Shown here piece by piece: positions 46,664-58,888 of a DNA stretch of 64,000 nucleotides; within the stretch, counting starts at the first letter, position 1; every line of letters starts with the position of its first letter. The DNA comes from Candidatus Didemnitutus sp. (GTDB lineage: Bacteria > Verrucomicrobiota > Verrucomicrobiia > Opitutales > Opitutaceae). Both the position numbers and the translations under genes were made by a program. The notes below the pieces were generated by a model. The model worked only from the letters and a program-made list of their open reading frames with translations. It was not told the origin of the DNA and did no database searches. The DNA lies in contig JAGOQJ010000001.1 of the NCBI GenBank assembly GCA_017991595.1, positions 62,001 to 126,000 of the forward strand, read 5' to 3'.

Positions 46664-48724
46664 TCAGAGTCGGAGCCGGCGCAGCCGCAGGGCGTTGGCG
46701 ACGACGGTGAGAGAGCTGAGACTCATGGCGACGCCGGCGAACATCGGGTTGAGCAGCCAGCCAAAAACAGGGAACAGCGCGCCGGCGGCGAGCGGCAGGC
46801 CGAGGCCGTTGTAGAAGAACGCCCAGAAGAGGTTCTGCTTGATGTTGCGGAACACGCCGCGGCTGAGGTGCACGGCGCGCACTAGGGCCTGCAGGTCGCC
46901 CTTCACGAGCACGAGGCCGGCGCTGTGCATGGCCACGTCCGTGCCCGTGCCCATCGCGATGCCGGTGTCGGCGGCGGCGAGGGCGGGCGCGTCGTTGAGG
47001 CCGTCGCCGGCGAAGGCGACCTTGGCGCCGCGGGCCTGATGTTCGCGGACGAGTTCCTGTTTGCGTGAGGGCGTCACCTCGGCGTGAAAACCGTCCAGTC
47101 CGAGCTGCTGCGCCACGGCCTGCGCGGCGGCCTGGCGGTCGCCCGTGACCATGAACACCCGCAGGCCGAGCCGCTGCAACTCGCGGATGGCGGCGGGCGT
47201 GGTGGGCTTCACCGGATCGGCGAGCGCGATCAGTCCGGCGGCTTGGCCGTCGACGGTGACGGCGGCGAGCGTGGCGGTGGGATGCTCCGGGAAAACGGTG
47301 CCGGCCGGGGCGCGTCCGACTTGCACGGCGCGTCCTTCGACGTGCGCCGTGACGCCGGCTCCGGCCTGCGCAGCGAAGCCTTCGGCGGCGGCGAGGCTGA
47401 GCCCGCGGGCCTGCGCCGCGGCGACGATGGCGCGGGCGAGCGGGTGTTCGCTGGGCGACTCGGCGGAGGCGGCGAGACGGAGCAACTCATCCTCGGCCAG
47501 CGCCGTGCCGGGCAGGGGGCGGACCGCCGCCACGACGGGGCGGCCCGCGGTGAGCGTGCCGGTCTTGTCGATCAGCAGCGTGTTCGCGTGCGTGAGCGCC
47601 TCGAGGGCGCCGGCGTCCTTCACGAGCACGCCGGCCTGCGCGCCGCGGCCAATGCCGGTGACGAGCGACACGGGTGTGGCGAGGCCGAGCGCGCAGGGGC
47701 AGGCGATGATGAGGACGGAGACGGCGTTGATCAGCCCGTAGAGCCAGCCGCGCTCGGCGGCGAGAAGCGTCCAAGCGACGAATGAGGTCGCCGCGATCGC
47801 GAGCACGACCGGGAAGAACCACGCGGACACGCGGTCGGCGAGGCGGGCGATGGGCGGCTCGCTCTCGACGGCCTGCTCGACGAGGCGGACGATCTGCGCG
47901 AGCAGCGTGTCGGCGCCGACGCGCTCGGCGCGATAGACGAACGAGCCCGTGGTGTTGAGCGTGCCGGCGCTGACGGGTTCGCCGGCCTGCTTGGTGACGG
48001 GCAACGGCTCGCCGGTGAGCATCGATTCGTCGATCTCGGCGGGCCCGGTCGTGAGCACGCCGTCGACCGGGAGGTGTTCGCCGGGCCGCACGCGCAGCCG
48101 GTCGCCCGGTTGCACGGCGTCGACCGGTATGTCACTCTCGCGGCCGTCGGCGTCGAGGCGGTGGGCGATCTTCGGGGCGAGGTCCATCAGCGCCCGGATG
48201 GCGGCGTCGGTGCGCGCGTGCGCGCGTTGTTCGATGATTTGGCCGAGGAGCACGACGGTGGTGATGAACGCCGTGCCTTCGAAGTAGAGTGCGGCGCCGT
48301 GATGCGAGAAGAGGTGCGGTGGCACGCGGTCCCACAGCAGCACGACGGACGCGCTGTAGAAATACGCGGCACCCGTGCCGGTGACCGTGAGCGTGAACAT
48401 GTTGGGGTCGCGCTCGCGGATCGATTTCCACCACCGGCGCAGGAAGGGCGCTCCGCTCCAGAAGAACACCGGCGTGGTCAACACGAGCTGGAGCCACGCG
48501 GATTCGCGCATCGTCAGGTAGTCGTAGAGGCCGTGCGAGACCATCGGCCACATCGCGAGCACGAGCACGGGGAGCGTCAGCACGACGGCGACATGGAAGC
48601 GCGGACGCAGGAACCGCTCGTGCGGCAGGCCCATGTAAACGGGCTCGTCGGGACGCGGTGCGGCGGTGGCGCCAGCGGGCGATTCCGCGTTCGCGGCGTG
48701 GCAGGAAGGGGGCGAGGAATGCAT
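46664..48724 (-). CDS. Cu(I)-exporting P-type ATPase (CopA-like, P1B-1)
   Basis: A 686-residue heavy-metal P-type ATPase that pumps monovalent copper out of the cytoplasm. Motifs in order are the actuator TGEP (238-241), the transmembrane metal site CPC (342-344), DKTGT (386-390) with the phosphorylated Asp, SEHPLA (425-430), GDGLND (573-578), YN in TM7 (638-639) and MSLSS in TM8 (667-671). CPC with YN and MxxSS is the P1B-1 signature for Cu(I)/Ag(I). There is no N-terminal HMA domain; the first 35 residues hold only one Cys and two or three His. ATG 48724 is preferred; a GTG sits directly upstream (48727). It is likely part of the same metal response as the cusBA-sigma operon at 50.6-56.2 kb. 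Confidence 0.92.
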   Translation of the reverse strand: MHSSPPSCHAANAESPAGATAAPRPDEPVYMGLPHERFLRPRFHVAVVLTLPVLVLAMWPMVSHGLYDYLTMRESAWLQLVLTTPVFFWSGAPFLRRWWKSIRERDPNMFTLTVTGTGAAYFYSASVVLLWDRVPPHLFSHHGAALYFEGTAFITTVVLLGQIIEQRAHARTDAAIRALMDLAPKIAHRLDADGRESDIPVDAVQPGDRLRVRPGEHLPVDGVLTTGPAEIDESMLTGEPLPVTKQAGEPVSAGTLNTTGSFVYRAERVGADTLLAQIVRLVEQAVESEPPIARLADRVSAWFFPVVLAIAATSFVAWTLLAAERGWLYGLINAVSVLIIACPCALGLATPVSLVTGIGRGAQAGVLVKDAGALEALTHANTLLIDKTGTLTAGRPVVAAVRPLPGTALAEDELLRLAASAESPSEHPLARAIVAAAQARGLSLAAAEGFAAQAGAGVTAHVEGRAVQVGRAPAGTVFPEHPTATLAAVTVDGQAAGLIALADPVKPTTPAAIRELQRLGLRVFMVTGDRQAAAQAVAQQLGLDGFHAEVTPSRKQELVREHQARGAKVAFAGDGLNDAPALAAADTGIAMGTGTDVAMHSAGLVLVKGDLQALVRAVHLSRGVFRNIKQNLFWAFFYNGLGLPLAAGALFPVFGWLLNPMFAGVAMSLSSLTVVANALRLRRLRL

Positions 48725-49055
48725 CACGAGAGGAGTTCGGGTTGAATCGACCGGCGCGGAACGGAGGCGTCCGAACGCCGAGCAGCGTGGTGCAGAAAAG
48801 CCGGGAAGGCCAGCGCGCGCAGGGCGGCGCTGGGTGAAGGGAAGCGGGTGGGGTCGGGCGGCATGGGAGCGGTGGTTTGCCGGGGAGACGGAGCTCGCGG
48901 CGAAATCTTACGCGGTGGCCCGAAAAATCCTGCGCCGGACGAGCGACCATCGTCGCGACGCGCGGCGTAGGCTGCCGCCGGGGCTAGGGTATGATTACGC
49001 CCGGCGGACGCTTGGGATGGACGCCGCGGGCCGCTTGCCCTGATAACGCAGAGGC
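48725..49055. other. Divergent intergenic region copA / M23 gene
   Basis: The 331-bp stretch holds no convincing gene. A TATGAT word at 48990-48995 is a possible -10 box for the forward M23 gene, with no clear -35 box. A 46-codon minus-strand frame (48724-48864) overlaps the copA start as TGATG but has no recognisable protein character. Confidence 0.5.
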
Positions 49056-50582
49056 ATGAACGACCACCGGCCAACCTCTTTGTCCCGGACGCGCCGGGCG
49101 CGGTGGCTCGGAGTGTGCGCGCTGGGGTTGGCCGCGGTGCTCATCGCGTTCGCTGCGCCGCCGCCGGCACCGCAGACGCTGATCGCGATTTCCGGCGACG
49201 GCAGCCTTACGTTGCGCTGGGAAGCCGTGCCGGGTGCGACGAGTTACACGCTGGGCCGGCGCACCAGTGCCACGACCGGCAATTACACGATGGTCGCCAC
49301 GGGGATCACGGCCCTCACGCACACGGACACCGGACGCACGAACGGCACGCCGTATTACTACATCGTCACGGCGACTGGGCCCGACGGCACGAGCGGTCCG
49401 TCCAACCAGGCGCGCGGCACGCCCGTGGCGGCGTTGCCGGAAGGCACCGTCGTGCGCTGGCCGCTGGCGAACAGCTCCGCGGCCGACGCCGACGTGATCC
49501 GCTACGCCTTCGGTCCGCGCAACATCGGGCGCTACGATTTCCACGCCGGGCTCGATCTCAACGCCGCGCAGGGCACGCCGGTGCACGCGGTCATGGCTGG
49601 CACGGTGACGAATCGCATCGAGTGGGACGGCGTGACCACCGGCAGCGGCAACAACCTGCTCGTGAGCCACGGCGCCGGGCGCTGGACCGCTTACCTGCAC
49701 CTGCACGGGTTCGCCGCCGGCATCGGAATCGGCAGCGCGGTCTCTGCGGGACAAATCATCGGCTACGTGGGCAAGACCGGCGCGACGTCGAATCACCTGC
49801 ACTTCACCTATTTTGTCGGCCTCGCCTCCGAGGCGAGCAACGAGATGCGCAGCCGCTCGCCGTTGGAATTGTTGCCGCGCACGACGGGTGTGGGCGCGCA
49901 GGCCGTGTTCAGCACGAGCGGGAACCGCACCGTGGACATCCTCATCCCCGCGCAACATAACACGATTCGTTGGATCATTCTGCGCGGGGCAGGCGTCACG
50001 CGGCTCGTGGATTACTACGACATCGTCGGCCAAGGCTCCACGCTGCGCGACAACCCGAACCAATCCGGTCTCCTTCTCCAAGTCGCGGCGCCGACGATTC
50101 CCTATCCCGGTGGCGGCGGCACCGTGCAACTCGTCGTGTCGCCCGATCCCGAAGCGCCGTGGGGCGACTTCGAGCCCACGCGCATCACGGTGCTGGATTT
50201 TCACGGTAACACCTTGGTCGATCGCACGGCCTATGAAGCGTGGAAACTCACCCACGGGCTCGCGCTCGATGCGGCCGACGACTCCGACGCGGACACCGAC
50301 GGGCTGCCGCTGCTCGTGGAATACGCGCTCGACCTCGATCCACACGTGGCGACTTGGGTGGGCGCACCGCAGTTCGTGCGCGCCGATGCCGATCGCGTGG
50401 AGTTCACCTACCGGCGCCGCCGGCCGGAGCTGTCCTACACCGTCGAGGCCTCGACGGATTTGGTGAACTGGAGCGCGGCAGAAGTGACGCAGGATTTTGC
50501 CGTCACGGGCGATCAAGTCACTGCGACGGCCACGCTCGGTGCCGCCGGGAGGAAATTTCTGCGGCTCTCGGTCACGCGCTGA
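49056..50582 (+). CDS. Secreted M23 peptidase with fibronectin III domain
   Basis: A 508-residue exported protein. A basic start and one hydrophobic segment (18-34, WLGVCALGLAAVLIAFA) form a signal or anchor. A fibronectin type III domain (about 38-122; SLTLRWEAVPGATSYTLGRR, YYYIVTATGPDGTSGPSN) is followed by a LytM/M23 domain (about 150-260) with the zinc and catalytic residues H163 and D167 in HAGLD, H215/H217 in YLHLH and H247/H249 in NHLHF. A beta-rich middle part follows, and the last 107 residues (from YEAWKLTHGL) match the C-terminal region of the subtilase and nuclease in this window. It probably cuts peptidoglycan cross-bridges or other peptides outside the cell. Confidence 0.9.
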   Translation: MNDHRPTSLSRTRRARWLGVCALGLAAVLIAFAAPPPAPQTLIAISGDGSLTLRWEAVPGATSYTLGRRTSATTGNYTMVATGITALTHTDTGRTNGTPYYYIVTATGPDGTSGPSNQARGTPVAALPEGTVVRWPLANSSAADADVIRYAFGPRNIGRYDFHAGLDLNAAQGTPVHAVMAGTVTNRIEWDGVTTGSGNNLLVSHGAGRWTAYLHLHGFAAGIGIGSAVSAGQIIGYVGKTGATSNHLHFTYFVGLASEASNEMRSRSPLELLPRTTGVGAQAVFSTSGNRTVDILIPAQHNTIRWIILRGAGVTRLVDYYDIVGQGSTLRDNPNQSGLLLQVAAPTIPYPGGGGTVQLVVSPDPEAPWGDFEPTRITVLDFHGNTLVDRTAYEAWKLTHGLALDAADDSDADTDGLPLLVEYALDLDPHVATWVGAPQFVRADADRVEFTYRRRRPELSYTVEASTDLVNWSAAEVTQDFAVTGDQVTATATLGAAGRKFLRLSVTR

Positions 50583-50596
50583 GATTGCCGCGGGGG

Positions 50597-50632
50597 CGTG
50601 AACCCAGGGCGCTTGGGACAAGCGCCCCCACC
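50597..50632 (-). repeat. B-family hairpin repeat, inverted
   Basis: On the minus strand GGTGGG precedes the stem GGCGCTTG-TCC-CAAGCGCC and CTGGGTTCACG follows. It lies between the stop codons of the convergent M23 and sigma-factor genes, whose gap is only 53 bp. Confidence 0.85.
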
Positions 50633-50635
50633 TGA

Positions 50636-51232
50636 TCAATGCGCGCGTGCGGACGAGGAGGACGCCTCAGGCGGCGCGCAGTCGCAGTCGAGGCATGCTC
50701 CGTCGGCGCAGGCGCCGCAGAATTGTTCGAGCCGTTTGCGCAATTCCTGGCGCGCCCGGTGCAGCGTGACGCTGGCGTGGTTGGCGGAAACGCCAAGGGC
50801 GCGCGCGGCATCCTTAACGGTTTCGCCCGCGAGTTCCACGCGGTGGAGCAGCTGCGCGTAGTGCGGCGGGAGTGTGGCGATGACGCCGGTCAGGCAGGAG
50901 CACAGTTGCGCCTCCAGCCCGGGCACGGCCGCGGCCGCGGTGTCTTCCCCGAGCGCGACGAGCTGTGCGCCCAGCACCGTGGTGCGCCGCCGCTCGGCCC
51001 CGCGCGTGCGGTAGTGATCGATGACCGCACGACGCAGCACCTGATAGAACCACGCCGTGAGCTTGTCGTCGTCGCGCAGGCCGTCGCCGTGCTGCAGGGC
51101 CTTCACGAGGCTGGTTTGCAGGGTGTCCTCTGCCTCCGCCGCGCTGCCGACGCGCGCGGCGAGGAAGGCTTTGAACGTGTCGCGCTGGGCGTGCAGGCGG
51201 GCGGCGAGCGCGTGGGTGCCGGCGGAGGTCAT
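50636..51232 (-). CDS. ECF sigma factor with Cys-rich tail (CorE-like)
   Basis: A 198-residue sigma-70 family ECF factor. Region 2 lies at about 12-82 (AEAEDTLQTSLVKAL, LTAWFYQVLRRAVIDHYR) and region 4 at about 117-172 (LPPHYAQLLHRVEL, ALGVSANHASVTLHRARQEL). Two additions stand out: a CSC motif at 111-113 in the linker between the regions, and a C-terminal Cys cluster, C172-x2-C175-x4-C180-x2-C183-x-C185, before an acidic/Ser tail. That is the architecture of the CorE group of metal-regulated ECF factors described in Myxococcus, which need no anti-sigma factor. Its ATG overlaps the cusA stop as ATGA, implying translational coupling. Control of the cus and copA genes by metal ions is inference. 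Confidence 0.88.
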   Translation of the reverse strand: MTSAGTHALAARLHAQRDTFKAFLAARVGSAAEAEDTLQTSLVKALQHGDGLRDDDKLTAWFYQVLRRAVIDHYRTRGAERRRTTVLGAQLVALGEDTAAAAVPGLEAQLCSCLTGVIATLPPHYAQLLHRVELAGETVKDAARALGVSANHASVTLHRARQELRKRLEQFCGACADGACLDCDCAPPEASSSSARAH

Positions 51233-54200
51233 TCTTGGGCGGCGACGGCCGCGGCGGCGACGGCCGCGGCGGCGGCGCGGGTCTCACGCTCGCGCAGCCA
51301 GACGAAGATGACGGGCGTGACGATCAGGATGTGCAGCAGGCTGGAGATGCTGCCGCCGACGACGGGCGCGGCGAGCGGCTGCATCACCTCGGAGCCGGTC
51401 TGCGTGCTCCACAGAATCGGCAGGAGCGAGGCGATGGTGGTGGCAATGGTCATCACCTTCGGCCGGAGGCGGAGGCGGGCGCCCTCCTTCACGGCGGCGA
51501 TGAGCTCGTCGTGCGTCAGCGCGCGACCGAGGCGCTCCTTGGCGCGGGCGACGGCTTCCTCGAGATAGACGACCATGACGACGCCGGTCTGGATGGCGGT
51601 GCCGAAGAGAGCGATGTAGCCGACCCAGACCGCGGTGCTGAAATTAAAGCCCATGGCCCACTGGAGCAGCACGCCACCGGTGAGCGCGAACGGCACGGCG
51701 AGCAGCACGTGCGCGGCCTCGGCGAGCGAGCGGAACGTCACCACGAGCACGGCGAAGCAGATCACCAGCACGAGCGGGAAGACGAACATCATCGTGCGCG
51801 TCGTGCGCAGCTGCTGCTCGTATTCGCCCGCGTATTCGATCGCCATGCCGGGATCGAGCTTCACCTCGGCGCTCACCGCGCGCTTCACGTCGGCGACGAA
51901 GCCGCCGAGGTCGCGGTCGGCGACGTTGGCCTGCACGAAGACACGGAGGCGGCCGTTCTCGGACGCGATCTCGTTCGGCCCGACGACGCGCTTGATGTCG
52001 GCGACTTGCCGCAACTGCACCACGGCGCCCGATGGCGTGGGGATGACGAGTTCGCCGAGTTTCTCGATGTCGCCGCGGTCCTCTTGTGCGAGTCGCACCT
52101 GCAGCGGCCAGCGTTCACGGCCCTTCAGCGTGGTGCCGACGGTCGCGCCGCCGAGGCCGGCTTCGACGTAGTCGTAGACGTGTTTCACGCTCAGTCCGTA
52201 GCGGCCGAGGTCGGCGCGGCGCACGGCGATCTCGAGATACGGTTTGCCCTGCACGCGCGAGGGCGCGACGCCAGTGGCGCCCTGCACGCGGTTGATGACG
52301 CGCTCAACTTCGAAGGCCTTGGCCTGGAGCGCGTCGAGATTGTCGCCGAAGATCTTCACGCCGAGCTGGGCGCGGATGCCGGTGCTGGTCATGAGCACGC
52401 GGTTCTCGATCGGCTGGAGGAAGCCCGGCACGTAGCCTGGCACGTTCATCAGCTTCTCGGAGAGGTCGGCGATGATGCTCTCCTTCGTCGTGCCGGCCGG
52501 CCACTCGGAGGGCGGCTTGAGCATGATGGTGGTCTCGATCATCTCGACCGGCGCGGGGTCGGTCGCGGTCTCGGCGCGGCCGAGCTTGCCGGCGACGGAC
52601 GCGACCGCAGGGTGCTCGCTCATGACCTTGTCCTGCCAGGCCATGATGCGCTTCACCTCCGTGAGCGAGGTCGCGGGCAGCAGGACGGGCATGAAGAGCA
52701 GCGAGCCTTCCTCGAGCGTGGGCATGAACTCCGTGCCGAAGCCGTCGGTGTGCTTCGCGATCGCGGCGGGCAGGCGGTCGTTCACGACGCGCGGCAGGCC
52801 CCAGGCGAGCACGACGCAGAAAGCGAGCAGCGCGGCCGCGAGCGCCAGCACGGTGCGCCGGTGCCGCAGGGCGAAGTTCAGGAACGGGTCGTAGCAACGC
52901 AGGAGGAACTTCATCAGCCAGTTCTCGTCCTCGGGCTTGAACGGTCCGCGCACGAAGAGCGTGCAGAGCACGGGCACGACCGTGATCGCGAGGACCAGCG
53001 CGCCGAGGATCGCGAAGACCTTCGTCCAAGCGAGCGGGTGGAAGAGTTTCCCTGCCTGGCCGCCGAGCATGAACACCGGCACGAACGCGAGCACGACCAC
53101 GATGATGGAGAAGAACATCGGCCGCCCGATCTGTTGCGAGCCCCGGAGCGTGATGTCGAAGACCTCGGTCTTGGTCAGGCGGCGGCCAAGCCGTTGCTCG
53201 GCGAGCTCGCATTGGCGGATGACATTTTCCGTCATCACGATACCGGCGTCGACCAGCACGCCGATGGCGATCGCGATACCCGTGAGCGACATGATGTGCG
53301 ACGGGATGCCGAAGCGATCCATGAGGATGAACGAGATCAGGATCGAGGCCGGCAGCGGGATCGTGACGATCAGGATGCTGCGGAAATGCCAGAGGAAGAA
53401 CACGTGCATCAGCGTCACGAGCACGATTTCCTCAAGCAGCGCGTCCTTGAGCGTGGCGATGGCGCGCGAGATGAGGTCGCTGCGGTCGTAGAACGATTCG
53501 ACCGTCACGCCCGCGGGCAGGCCGGGCGAGATGGCGGCGATGCGCTCCTTCACGTCTTGGATCACGCGGTAGGCGTTCTCGCCGTAGCGCATGACGACGA
53601 TGCCGCCGACGACCTCACGGCCGTTCACGTCGAGCGTGCCGCGGCGGAAATCGCCGCCGATGCGCACGGTGGCGACGTCGCGCAGGTAGAGCGGCGTGCC
53701 TTGGCGCGGCCGGAGCACGATGGATTCAAGATCGGTCGTGTCCTGCACGAGGCCGACGCCGCGCACGACGAACTCGGCGCCGTTTTCCTCGATGGTCTTG
53801 CCGCCGACGTTGAGGTTGCCCGCGCTCACGGCGTCCATCACGTCGCCGAGCATGACGTCGAATTGCTTCAGTTTCTGCGCCGAGACCTCGATCTGATACT
53901 GGCGCACGAAGCCGCCGAGGCTCGCGACTTCCGCGACGCCCGGCACGGCGGCGAGTTGGTAGCGCACGAAGGTGTCCTGCAACGAGCGCAGCGAGCCGAG
54001 GTCATGCGCGCCGGATTCGTCCTTGAGGTAATACTGGTAGATCCAGCCGAGGCCGGTGGCATCCGGGCCGAGGCGCGCCACGACGCCGCCGGGCAGGAGA
54101 TCGCCGAGGGAGTTGAGCCGCTCCAACACGCGCGTGCGGGCGAAGTAGGTGTCAATCTTGTCCTCGAACACGACGGTGAGGAACGAAAACCCGAACATCG

Positions 54201-54456
54201 AGGTGGCCCGCACGCTCTTCACGCCGGCGAGGCCCTGGAGCGACACGCTGAGCGGATACGTGATCTGGTCCTCGACTTCCTGCGGCGAGCGGCCGGGCCA
54301 ATCGGCGTAGACGATGACTTGGTTCTCGGATAGGTCAGGGATGGCGTCGATCGGCACGCGCTGCAGCGCGATGAAACCCCACGCGCACAGCGCGAGGAAG
54401 CCCGAGAGGACGAGGAAGCGATTGTGCAACGACCAGCGGATGACGGCGTCGATCAT
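51229..54456 (-). CDS. Heavy-metal efflux RND permease (CusA/CzcA family)
   Basis: A 1075-residue inner-membrane proton-driven pump of the HME-RND family. N-terminal signature VPIDAIPDLSENQVIVYADW, transmembrane motifs GIAIAIGVLVDAGIVMTENV and GRPMFFSIIVVVLAF, and the second-half motifs SGQFE-like AGEYEQQLR and TAIQTGVVMVVYLEEA mark the CusA/CzcA group. From the E. coli CusA sequence as remembered, two of its three copper-binding Met positions are kept (FMPVLLP and LMTSTGI), while the third (in RPGM) is Thr here (PAGTTKE). So Cu/Ag is likely but not certain. The C-terminal tail is an Ala repeat encoded by two exact 15-bp units (51241-51270). It is in an operon with the adaptor upstream and the sigma gene downstream. 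Confidence 0.93.
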   Translation of the reverse strand: MIDAVIRWSLHNRFLVLSGFLALCAWGFIALQRVPIDAIPDLSENQVIVYADWPGRSPQEVEDQITYPLSVSLQGLAGVKSVRATSMFGFSFLTVVFEDKIDTYFARTRVLERLNSLGDLLPGGVVARLGPDATGLGWIYQYYLKDESGAHDLGSLRSLQDTFVRYQLAAVPGVAEVASLGGFVRQYQIEVSAQKLKQFDVMLGDVMDAVSAGNLNVGGKTIEENGAEFVVRGVGLVQDTTDLESIVLRPRQGTPLYLRDVATVRIGGDFRRGTLDVNGREVVGGIVVMRYGENAYRVIQDVKERIAAISPGLPAGVTVESFYDRSDLISRAIATLKDALLEEIVLVTLMHVFFLWHFRSILIVTIPLPASILISFILMDRFGIPSHIMSLTGIAIAIGVLVDAGIVMTENVIRQCELAEQRLGRRLTKTEVFDITLRGSQQIGRPMFFSIIVVVLAFVPVFMLGGQAGKLFHPLAWTKVFAILGALVLAITVVPVLCTLFVRGPFKPEDENWLMKFLLRCYDPFLNFALRHRRTVLALAAALLAFCVVLAWGLPRVVNDRLPAAIAKHTDGFGTEFMPTLEEGSLLFMPVLLPATSLTEVKRIMAWQDKVMSEHPAVASVAGKLGRAETATDPAPVEMIETTIMLKPPSEWPAGTTKESIIADLSEKLMNVPGYVPGFLQPIENRVLMTSTGIRAQLGVKIFGDNLDALQAKAFEVERVINRVQGATGVAPSRVQGKPYLEIAVRRADLGRYGLSVKHVYDYVEAGLGGATVGTTLKGRERWPLQVRLAQEDRGDIEKLGELVIPTPSGAVVQLRQVADIKRVVGPNEIASENGRLRVFVQANVADRDLGGFVADVKRAVSAEVKLDPGMAIEYAGEYEQQLRTTRTMMFVFPLVLVICFAVLVVTFRSLAEAAHVLLAVPFALTGGVLLQWAMGFNFSTAVWVGYIALFGTAIQTGVVMVVYLEEAVARAKERLGRALTHDELIAAVKEGARLRLRPKVMTIATTIASLLPILWSTQTGSEVMQPLAAPVVGGSISSLLHILIVTPVIFVWLRERETRAAAAAVAAAAVAAQE

Positions 54457-54510
54457 TGGAGCGAAAAGGTGGCGTGCGGCGGTGAGAAGGGGGCGAAAGC
54501 GGCCAGGCGA

Positions 54511-54535
54511 GTTTGTAGTCTATTAGACTACAAAC
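54511..54535 (-). repeat. Palindromic element, copy 3 (perfect), between cusB and cusA
   Basis: Identical to copy 2 (1726-1750): core TGTAGTCTATTAGACTACA in a 25-bp perfect palindrome. It starts 13 bp after the adaptor stop codon and lies 55 bp before the permease start. It could be an operator for an internal promoter or a hairpin that adjusts expression of the two genes. Confidence 0.85.
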
Positions 54536-54547
54536 CGGTTTGGGCCC

Positions 54548-56239
54548 TCAGTGGACTTCCTCGCCGCACTCGAGCATGGCGGAGCCGAAGAAGGGATTGC
54601 GGAGTTCGTGGGAGCGGGAGAGCCAGCGACCGGTGCCGAGGACGGGAGTCATCGGGCATTGGTAGATCCAGAGCTGCTCGCGGTGGTGCAGGTGCTCGGC
54701 GCGGACGAGGTCGGCGAGGTCGGTGCTGAACGGCTCGAAGGCGCGGCGCACGGCCTCGATGTCGTCGCTGTCGACCAGCTTCGCGCCGGTTGTTGTGAGC
54801 GGGAATTTCGCGGCGGGGGCGAAGCCGGCGACGTAGGCGTCGAGCGCCGCGCGGAGCGCGGGAAAGCCCTGCCGGTAAGCGGGAAGATCGTCGGCCGCGA
54901 GGGCGGTGGCGGAGTCGGCGGCGGCGAACGCGAGCGTGCGCAACAGCGCGGCGGCGGCCGCGTCGTGCTTCGGCGCCTCAGCGGAAATCTTCTCGGCCGG
55001 CGCCGCGCCGTGGTCATGCGCCGATGCGCCGACGGCGGCGTGGGCGAGCTGGGCCTGGCCGTCGAGAAGCAGCGCGCCCTGCGTGACGACGGCATCGCCC
55101 TCGCGCAGGCCGGACAACACCTCGGCGTCGCGATCGCCGAAGCGGCCGAGCTGGATCTCGCGCGCGGCGTAGGCGTGCTGGCCGCGGTCGACGAAGACGA
55201 CGGGCTTGCCGCCGTGCTGGAGGACGGCGCTGCGCGGGATGAGCAGCGTCTCCGGCGCCTCGGCGACGACAACCGCCTGCGCGGTCTGGCGGTGACGGAG
55301 GATACGGTCGGGGTTGTCGAGCACGACGCGGACGCGGGCGGTGCGTGTGGCTTCGTTGAGATTCGGGTCGATGAAGGCGATGGGGGCGGTGAGCACCTTG
55401 CCCGGCAACGACGGCACGTGAACCTCCACCGGCTGGCCGGTGCGCAGCCACGCGAGGTCGGGCTCGTAGGCGTCGAAAACAAACCACATGCGCGAGAAAT
55501 CGCCGATCTGGAACAACTCGTCGTTGGCGGCGACGTAGTTGCCCTCGTAGACGGCGCGCGAGACGACGGTGCCCGACATCGGGGCGCGCACGGTGACCAT
55601 CGCGGTGGGCTTCAGGGTGTTTTCGAGGATGTCGATTTCCTCGTCGGTCAGACCGAGCTCGAGCAGGCGTTCGCGGGCGGCGGAGCGTTCGGCCAAGGTG
55701 AAGACGGCGGTGCCGGCCTTGATACGTTCGACGAACTCGCGCTGGGCGGTGAGCATCTCCGGGCTGAAGATCGTGACGAGCGGCGCGCCCGCCTCGACGT
55801 CGGCACCGACGAAGTTGACGTGGAGTTTCTCGATCCGGCCTGGGACGCGAGCGGCGAGGATACGGTGGCGGGTGTCGTCGTCGTCGATGATCCCGCTCAC
55901 GCGCACGGTGCGGGCCAACGCGCCGCGGCGGACGGGCGAGGTTTGCACGCCGGTGACGGCGGCTTGGGCCGACGTGAGCGTGACGAGATTGGGGTCGAGC
56001 GGTGCGTCCGACGCCCCGGTGGCGCCGGAGGCGGCGACGAGCGCCATACCGCAGATGGTGCATTTGGCGTCCGGGCGGTCGGCCTTGATCCACGGGTGCA
56101 TGGGGCACTGGTAAGTCGCGGCGGGCGCGGCGCCGTGATCGTGGGAGTCGGCGGCGGGAGCGTGGCGGCCCACGAGGAAGCCGCCGAGCGCGGCGGCCGC
56201 GGCGAGAGCGACGAGGAGGAAAACGAGACGAACGTTCAC
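54548..56239 (-). CDS. RND efflux periplasmic adaptor with two metal-binding ends (CusB-like)
   Basis: A 563-residue membrane-fusion protein that links the RND pump to an outer-membrane channel. A signal/anchor segment lies at 4-24. A His-rich linker (DSHDHG) leads to a heavy-metal-binding domain with YQCPMHPWI (C45, M47, H48) and CTICGM (C60, C63, M65). Barrel-sandwich and hairpin domains follow (about 75-400; VSGIIDDDDTRHRILAARVP, VRAPMSGTVVSRAVYEGNYV). The C-terminal 140 residues resemble the DUF3347 domain and end with a second YQCPM (526-530) and a Cys at 558. No outer-membrane CusC-type gene is present in the window, so the third part of the pump must be encoded elsewhere or lost. Confidence 0.9.
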   Translation of the reverse strand: MNVRLVFLLVALAAAAALGGFLVGRHAPAADSHDHGAAPAATYQCPMHPWIKADRPDAKCTICGMALVAASGATGASDAPLDPNLVTLTSAQAAVTGVQTSPVRRGALARTVRVSGIIDDDDTRHRILAARVPGRIEKLHVNFVGADVEAGAPLVTIFSPEMLTAQREFVERIKAGTAVFTLAERSAARERLLELGLTDEEIDILENTLKPTAMVTVRAPMSGTVVSRAVYEGNYVAANDELFQIGDFSRMWFVFDAYEPDLAWLRTGQPVEVHVPSLPGKVLTAPIAFIDPNLNEATRTARVRVVLDNPDRILRHRQTAQAVVVAEAPETLLIPRSAVLQHGGKPVVFVDRGQHAYAAREIQLGRFGDRDAEVLSGLREGDAVVTQGALLLDGQAQLAHAAVGASAHDHGAAPAEKISAEAPKHDAAAAALLRTLAFAAADSATALAADDLPAYRQGFPALRAALDAYVAGFAPAAKFPLTTTGAKLVDSDDIEAVRRAFEPFSTDLADLVRAEHLHHREQLWIYQCPMTPVLGTGRWLSRSHELRNPFFGSAMLECGEEVH

Positions 56240-56344
56240 ATCCGTGATACGCGGCTGCCGCGGGATTCCCTCGGCGAATGTGGCGCTGCTCGCACCGCGT
56301 GGTGAGTCGCCGTCCGCGGTGGGCGGACGTGAGGCCCGTCCGGC

Positions 56345-57337
56345 TTACTTGGCCGGGGCGCGATCCGGGTCACCCACGGCGGCGACGGCCTGTCGCGGGG
56401 GCGTGGCGAGGGTCTTTTTGTTCTTCGCCACGGTGATGATGGCGACGCCGGCAATGATGATGGCTGAGGCGAGCAGCGTGCGCGGCCCGATCGGCTCCTT
56501 GAGGATGAGCCAGCCGAGGAAGACGGCGACGACGGGGTTGACGTAGGCGTAGGTGGCCACGTGCGAGGGCGTGCTGTGCTTCATCAGCCACACGAAGGTG
56601 GTGAAACCGATGAGCGAGCCGAAGACGATGAGGTAGGCCCAAGCCCAAACGGAGTTCGCGCTGACCTGCGCGAGAGAGAAGTCGGTGAGCTCGCCGCGGG
56701 CGACGCTCACGAGCAGCAGCCACACGCTGCCCATCAGCATCTGGATGGCGGCGCCGGTGAACGGCTCGGCGGGCGCGGAGGCGTAGCGGGTGTAGAGCGA
56801 ACCAGCGCTCCAGAACAGGCAGGCGAAGATGAGTCCGACGATGCGGGCCGGGTCGAGGCCATCGGTGCCGCCGCGCAGCACGTCTGGCCCGACCAGCAGG
56901 ACGAGTCCGGCGAAGCCGAGGGCGATGCCGGCGAAGGTGGCGAGGTTGGGACGCGAGCCACGTTTGCCGTCATTGAAAAATTTCAACGCGCCCCAATCGA
57001 GCAACACGATGAAGAGCGGGCCGACGGAGACCATCAGCGTGGCGATGCCGGAAGGGATTTTCTGTTCGGCCCACGAGACGAGGCCGTTGCCGCCGAGCAG
57101 GAGGAGCGCGCCGATGATGGAGTTGTCGATCCACTGCTTGCGGGTGGCGCGGAAGCCGCGCGTGACGGAGATGAAGGCGGCGATGATCGCGCCCGCGACG
57201 AGGAAGCGCGCGGCGGCCATGAGGAACGGCGGCAGCGTCTCGACGGCGATGCGGATGCCGAGGTAGGTGGAGCCCCAGACGACGTAGATCGTGGTGAAGC
57301 CGAGGATCAGCGCGAGACGCGAGGGAGTGGAGGACAC
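56345..57337 (-). CDS. EamA / DMT superfamily transporter
   Basis: A 330-residue membrane protein with about ten helices in two EamA repeats (about 10-150 and 168-310). The first repeat begins FTTIYVVWGSTYLGIRIAVE, a typical YedA/RhaT-type start, and the second contains GSLIGFTTFVWLMKHSTPS and YVNPVVAVFLGWLILKEPIG, the family's most conserved segment. Members export amino acids or other small metabolites; the substrate here is unknown. The 3' end has a Lys-rich tail. It lies 84 bp downstream of the MocR gene on the same strand, so the regulator and transporter are probably co-transcribed and functionally linked, as often seen for MocR genes. Confidence 0.9.
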   Translation of the reverse strand: MSSTPSRLALILGFTTIYVVWGSTYLGIRIAVETLPPFLMAAARFLVAGAIIAAFISVTRGFRATRKQWIDNSIIGALLLLGGNGLVSWAEQKIPSGIATLMVSVGPLFIVLLDWGALKFFNDGKRGSRPNLATFAGIALGFAGLVLLVGPDVLRGGTDGLDPARIVGLIFACLFWSAGSLYTRYASAPAEPFTGAAIQMLMGSVWLLLVSVARGELTDFSLAQVSANSVWAWAYLIVFGSLIGFTTFVWLMKHSTPSHVATYAYVNPVVAVFLGWLILKEPIGPRTLLASAIIIAGVAIITVAKNKKTLATPPRQAVAAVGDPDRAPAK

Positions 57338-57421
57338 GGAAAGGAAGGAGGGGAAAAAGAAGGGAGGCGGCCGCCCGGCGTCGGGGGAACGGCGAAAAAC
57401 AGGCGGGGAATCCGCCGCGCC

Positions 57422-58888
57422 TCAGATTTGCTGCCGCACGAGTTCGCCGACGGTGCGGAGGGCGGCGTCCATCTCGTCAGACCAGGGCTGGCTGCAGCTC
57501 ATGCGGATGCAGTGGCGGTAGCGGTCCTTCACGGTGAAGAGCGAGCCGGGGGCGAGGTTGATCTTGTGCTTGAGCGCCTCCTTGCGAAGGCGGAGCGAGT
57601 CGACCTTGGCGGGGAACTCGACCCAGATGTAGTTGCCGCCCTGCGGCCGGCTGAAGCGCGTGCCCTCGGGAAAATAGCGCTGCATGCCCTGCAGGAAGAG
57701 GTGCAGGTGCTGGCTGTAGGCGCGGCGCAGCGAACGCAGGTGGTGGTCGTAGCCGCCGTCGCGGAGAAACTCGGCCAGCGTCTTCTGCAGGATGCGCGGC
57801 GTGCCCATGGTGTTGATGAACTTCAGGCGGCGGATGCGCTCGAGGTAACGGCCGGGCGCGCTCCAGCCGACGTGGAAGCCGGGCGCGAGCGTCTTGCCGA
57901 AGGAGGAGCAGAGCATGACGCGGCCGTCGCGGTCCCAGGCCTTGAGCGGCTTGGGGCGCACGTCGCCGAAGTGGGTATCGCCGTAGATGTCGTCCTCGAT
58001 GATGGGCAGGTCGTGCCGGGCGATGAGTTCGTAGATGCGCTGCTTCTTCTCGTCCGGCATGAGCGAGCCGAGCGGGTTGTGGAAGTTGGGCATGAGCATG
58101 ACGACCTTCACGTCGTTCTGCTTGAGCGCCTCCTGGAGCGCGTCGGTGCACATGCCCTGGCGGGAACAGGTGGGAATCTCGAGCGCGCGGAGGTTGAGCG
58201 CCTGGATGATCTCGAGGAAACCAAAGTAGGCGGGAGTCTCGATGGCGACCGTGTCGCCGGGCTTGGTGACGGCGCGGAGGCAGAGATTGAGCGCCTCGGT
58301 GGCGCCGGAGGTGACGACGAGTTCGTCGTGCGCGATGGGCACGCCGGCCTGGAGGTAACGGCGGGCGATCTCGCGCGTGAGCGGTTCGTAGCCCCAGTTC
58401 ATGCCGGCGCGGCCGATGAGCGTGGGGTCGCGGCGGGCGACGGAGCCGAGCATGCGCGCGAGTTTCTTGGTGGGGAAAAGGCTGTGGTGCGGGCAGGCAG
58501 AGCCGAAGGGCACGTAGTCGGCGTTGAGTGCGACTTCCATGACCTCGGCGGTGAGATCGTTCACGCCCACGTAGGAGGGCTTGCACATGGGCTTGGCCAT
58601 GCGCGGCTCGGGGGCGAGGCTCGGCGGGCGCGGGCGCACGTAGTAACCCGATTGCGGGCGCGCCTCGAGGTAGCCGCGGTTCTCCAGCACGGTGTAGGCC
58701 TGCAGCACAGTGGCGATGGAGACGTCGCGCTGCCGCGACATCACACGCACGGACGGCACGCGATGGCCCGGACGCAGCGTGCCCTGCTCGATGAGGTTCT
58801 GGAGCGAATCGGCGAGCTCCGCGTAGAGCGGGCGCGCGGCGGCCTTCGCGGACGAAAGCGGCTTCGGGGCAACGACGGTTTGGATCAT
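57422..58888 (-). CDS. MocR-type transcriptional regulator (GntR wHTH + aminotransferase domain)
   Basis: A 488-residue regulator. The winged helix (about 18-85) has LYAELADSLQNLIEQGTLRP and GHRVPSVRVMSRQRDVSIAT, typical of GntR proteins. The rest is an aspartate-aminotransferase-fold PLP domain with the Schiff-base Lys K332 in SSFGKTLAPGFHVGW, D299/D300 in IIEDDIYGD and the C-terminal Arg-bearing RMSCSQPW. Such proteins sense amino acids or PLP derivatives (for example PdxR, GabR). It is divergent from nothing in the immediate 130 bp; its likely promoter and a dyad lie at 58966-59001. Confidence 0.9.
   Translation of the reverse strand: MIQTVVAPKPLSSAKAAARPLYAELADSLQNLIEQGTLRPGHRVPSVRVMSRQRDVSIATVLQAYTVLENRGYLEARPQSGYYVRPRPPSLAPEPRMAKPMCKPSYVGVNDLTAEVMEVALNADYVPFGSACPHHSLFPTKKLARMLGSVARRDPTLIGRAGMNWGYEPLTREIARRYLQAGVPIAHDELVVTSGATEALNLCLRAVTKPGDTVAIETPAYFGFLEIIQALNLRALEIPTCSRQGMCTDALQEALKQNDVKVVMLMPNFHNPLGSLMPDEKKQRIYELIARHDLPIIEDDIYGDTHFGDVRPKPLKAWDRDGRVMLCSSFGKTLAPGFHVGWSAPGRYLERIRRLKFINTMGTPRILQKTLAEFLRDGGYDHHLRSLRRAYSQHLHLFLQGMQRYFPEGTRFSRPQGGNYIWVEFPAKVDSLRLRKEALKHKINLAPGSLFTVKDRYRHCIRMSCSQPWSDEMDAALRTVGELVRQQI

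Follow-up and report, generated by a model that had tools for sequence, protein, structure and literature searches.

The cusB-cusA-sigma operon and its neighbours

The window, a stretch of 64,000 nucleotides from Candidatus Didemnitutus sp., carries a gene for an ECF sigma factor, which is the last gene of a cusB-cusA-sigma operon and lies near a copper ATPase gene. The features of the locus are as follows:

46664..48727, minus strand: copA, P1B-1 copper ATPase with CPC at 343, YN and MSLSS; predicted target gene
48886..48911, minus strand: predicted CorE-type promoter GTAAGATT-N11-TCCGTCT upstream of copA, with its -35 block at 48911-48904 and its -10 block at 48892-48886
49056..50582, plus strand: M23 peptidase gene, between sigma and copA on the opposite strand
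50636..51232, minus strand: CorE-like ECF sigma factor of 198 amino acids, with CSC at 111-113 and C-terminal Cys 172/175/180/183/185
51229..54456, minus strand: cusA, Cu/Ag-type RND pump with Met triad M589/M639/M689
54548..56239, minus strand: cusB, membrane-fusion protein with HlyD_D23 and HMBD domains (Pfam)
50600..56433, no strand: segment with sigma, cusA and cusB, different in the sister genome G050 although the flanks on both sides are about 85-97% identical; putative exchanged cassette
1528-1544, 1730-1746 and 54515-54531: perfect palindrome GTAGTCTAWTAGACTAC, in intergenic gaps

The ATG of the sigma gene overlaps the TGA of cusA as ATGA, and the junction reads ...gcccaagaATGAcctcc... 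This overlap and the last position of sigma in the operon, both described in the first-pass annotation, agree with the ORF coordinates and the sequence, and the CSC and the five C-terminal cysteines that it listed are seen in the translated ORF. The sigma protein matches Sigma70_r2 and Sigma70_r4_2 above cut-off (Pfam) and contains only ECF regions 2 and 4. Its cysteines 111, 113, 172, 175, 180, 183 and 185 are invariant across 20 aligned family members and nearly invariant over about 52 Opitutaceae matches, so they do not occur by chance. The cysteine-rich domain (CRD) has the spacing C-x2-C-x4-C-x2-C-x-C, and in an AlphaFold model built with 10 sequences this tail is disordered, next to ECF-like helices. 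Anti-sigma domains were found neither when seven genes of the window around sigma were scanned nor in 30 genes sampled around the sigma genes of relatives, and the earlier statement that no anti-sigma gene lies nearby holds for the window genes scanned.

The cusA product matches ACR_tran (Pfam) and the CusA/CzcA family with 1069.6 bits against a cut-off of 701 (NCBIfam), and its M589/M639/M689 correspond to the three substrate-site methionines M573/M623/M672 of Escherichia coli CusA. CusB has an N-terminal heavy-metal-binding domain (CPMH...CTICGM). Since CusA has the Met triad and CopA the CPC, YN and MSLSS motifs, both are predicted by established signatures to be Cu(I)-type, and the copper-type pump named in the first pass is thereby upheld. 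The CusA Met triad and the CusB adaptor are shared with the CusCFBA system of E. coli, which also has cusC and cusF, neither of them seen in the window operon, and which is regulated by the CusRS two-component system. The M23 peptidase gene in the gap between sigma and copA is common to the sister genome and absent at the other loci checked.

Relation of the sigma factor to CorE, CorE2 and SigZ

A linker CxC together with a CRD is the stated signature of the former ECF44 group (PMC8999054), and CorE-like sigma factors were already reported in Verrucomicrobia in 2011 (PMC3107203). The window protein has an invariant CxC (C111/C113) between regions 2 and 4. The CRD cysteines of Myxococcus xanthus CorE are C181/184/189/192/194 (PMC3107203; PMC9023288), and by spacing the four invariant ones (181, 184, 192 and 194) correspond to C172, C175, C183 and C185. 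The equivalent of CorE Cys189, which is the main residue of Cu activation and has an equivalent in 11 of 21 published members (PMC3107203), is C180. The linker CxC, the Cys-rich tail and the lack of a nearby anti-sigma gene uphold the CorE-like assignment made in the first pass, and the protein, as judged from its sequence, adds one more member to the known CorE-like (former ECF44) sigma factors. In the 2021 classification (ECF238) the founding CorE itself is reported as unclassified (PMC8999054).

M. xanthus CorE (MXAN_3426; former ECF44) shares with the window protein the two-domain ECF architecture, the linker CxC, the CRD spacing (compared through published residue positions), the lack of a linked anti-sigma factor, a copper gene neighbourhood and copA among its targets, which are predicted in the window. 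M. xanthus copA has a CorE-dependent promoter (PMC3707914). In contrast, the window CRD is without the minor sixth cysteine (206), its gene ends a cusBA operon, and window-type promoters have AAG in the -35 block instead of the AAC for which the M. xanthus promoters were selected. The regulon of M. xanthus CorE is also wider than here and includes cuoB, copB and MXAN_3427; the Cus2 and Cus3 systems of that species are induced later (PMC3107203). All experiments on CorE-like sigma factors found in the literature come from M. xanthus.

CorE2 of M. xanthus has the same architecture as the window sigma, and the Cys tail might sense Cd/Zn or another metal, as CorE2 does, and not copper. M. xanthus CorE is also weakly induced by Cd and Zn (PMC3107203), and Cys coordination alone does not fix the identity of the metal. 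This reading is nevertheless unlikely: the extra adjacent cysteine of CorE2 (Cys174), which sets Cd/Zn specificity, is missing in the window sigma (C172-G-A-C175), which keeps the CorE spacing, and the neighbouring pump and ATPase both have Cu(I) signatures. It is far less probable still that the protein is a SigZ-type sigma factor whose cysteines are incidental. SigZ is its top NCBIfam match, but the 100.6 bits obtained lie under the curated cut-off of 168.65 (TIGR02959), for which this identity was rejected, and the SigZ-like relatives have no linker CxC and a different Cys pattern.

A sigma search over 252 Opitutaceae genomes gave 49 genomes with matches above about 110 bits, with a clear gap to the rest. 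The linker CxC and a similar Cys tail are also seen in matches from Myxococcota and other Verrucomicrobiota and in plasmid-borne members of Roseobacter litoralis and Roseovarius, organisms that the 2011 list (PMC3107203) names. Opitutus terrae Oter_1731, a published CRD sigma factor (probably our G173:C1:2130156), belongs to the same subfamily and is about 53% identical; its locus has copA downstream and the same promoter motif but, unlike the window, no cusA-type pump was found adjoining it. Close relatives have the gene order (outer-membrane factor)-(small gene)-cusB-cusA-sigma-(small genes)-copA. Among the sampled Opitutaceae loci, sigma has copA as a neighbour more often than a cusA-type pump: within 3.5 kb, copA is present at 41 of 54 loci and the pump at 20 of 54. 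Multicopper oxidase or CopB genes neighbour sigma at other Opitutaceae loci.

The promoter motif and the predicted target

When the regions ahead of copA were searched without bias for spaced word pairs, the dyad GTAAG-N16-CGTC(T) emerged, which is exact in 19 of 35 copA upstream regions and in at most 6 in shuffles. The aligned sites form a bipartite consensus, TGTAAGATT-N11-TCCGTCT, in which two blocks are conserved and the spacer is random; this is the form of an ECF promoter. With a matrix, 37 of the 41 Opitutaceae loci that have copA near sigma show the motif ahead of copA, and three of the four copA loci missing it are at contig ends. The motif is present in 36 of 49 genomes with the sigma gene and in 9 of 203 without it (odds ratio 60, p 2e-24, Fisher test on 252 genomes, which are related, so that independence is overstated), and a reversed control pattern had no association with the sigma gene in the 252 genomes. 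Besides copA, the genes preceded by such sites include cusB in several relatives and further copper genes. Weaker TGTAA...CGTCT sites are found near CorE-like sigma genes of other phyla. The locus L085 (G072) has seven promoter-like sites of the consensus within 19 kb, which suggests a larger copper regulon in that relative.

In the window genome (2.88 Mb and 87% complete, so that further promoter sites could be missing) there is one exact copy of the consensus, before copA. This site has a matrix score of 34.6, and the next best in the window has 7.7. The first-pass annotation proposed a search for a promoter motif shared by cusB and copA: the consensus is present upstream of copA and was not found upstream of cusB (best matrix score -3.1), nor upstream of cusA (-2.1) or sigma (-4.2). 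When mismatches were allowed in the genome scan, one more site appeared at 2 mismatches, within a long ORF of the opposite strand, and 14 sites at 3 mismatches; all are regarded as chance or unproven. A sigma-70 promoter scan of 48600-57500 found none.

Because the only exact site precedes copA and nothing comparable is present at cusB, cusA or sigma, copA and not its own operon is the likely target of the sigma factor in the window genome. The early suggestion of copA as a target thus gains support from the exact motif copy, and the suggestion that the sigma factor controls its own pump does not, there being no consensus upstream of cusB, cusA or sigma. Autoregulation of the cusB-cusA-sigma operon, plus copA, as one metal-responsive unit would suit the place of sigma in this operon, and in relatives the motif does occur before pump genes: in L068, L074, L075, L076 and L083 at two places, after sigma and upstream of cusB, and before a divergent pump operon in G050 and G044. 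With one exact site genome-wide and these scores against that of copA, such a unit is improbable here, though somewhat less so than a Cd/Zn sensor.

The preferred reading, to which we give a probability of roughly 80%, is that a CorE-like, Cu-activated sigma factor without anti-sigma directs RNA polymerase to TGTAAGATT-N11-TCCGTCT and mainly induces copA. Copper would bind the cysteines clustered at the C-terminus, together with the linker CxC, and switch the sigma factor on with no anti-sigma factor involved; the activated protein would then direct RNA polymerase to the motif, which precedes copA alone in the window genome, so that mainly the CopA ATPase would be induced, and the Cus pump operon, sigma gene included, would be transcribed from another promoter. 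The features of the protein, the order of the genes, their conservation and the motif with its association to the sigma gene are observed; to these, the reading adds copper as the metal, its direct binding and recognition of the motif by the window sigma, which we infer. The motif also lies about 40 bp before cusB in L244 (G133; 1501) and L246 (G141; 1501), genomes in which no CorE-like sigma was detected among the candidates scored, at most 12 per genome, and this counts against the copA-sigma model.

Metal sensing by CorE-like sigma factors needs no anti-sigma factor. The predicted promoter offers a defined target sequence that can be tested across an entire bacterial family, with an enlarged set of members, and the minimal predicted regulon of the window genome, with one exact site, would simplify tests of direct sensing and of specificity.

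Comparison with the sister genome

The window and G050 are about 85-98% identical in DNA between 41.7 kb and roughly 50.6 kb, and 94% identical again from 56433. Over sigma the identity is 63-78%, and the cusBA content has no match at the DNA level. The sigma gene of G050 is oriented divergently to another pump operon, which has the motif in its promoter region, and the two genomes do not differ at the copA promoter site. The simplest reading would be one exchange of sigma and pump since the split from G050, in either direction. For the sigma part, the alternative is fast divergence of the window sigma, whose branch in the tree is the longest within its genus group (0.62 vs 0.13-0.29); because of this branch its specificity could have shifted. 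We consider it a tentative proposal, with odds somewhat below even, that the exchange took in both the sigma gene and a Cus operon no longer under its control, while the promoter that the sigma factor reads remained in place before the separate chromosomal copA. If true, sensor and target are wired across the boundary of a cassette exchange.

The GTAGTCTAWTAGACTAC copy at 54515-54531 sits in the cusB-cusA gap, just after cusB, and was considered as a BlaI/CopY-type operator for cusA-sigma. This was rejected, since the palindrome has about 23 sites genome-wide (none for a control pattern), often in pairs with a distance of 202 or 65 bp, and a Penicillinase_R protein was not found; on the same grounds it is a dispersed, REP/MITE-like repeat.
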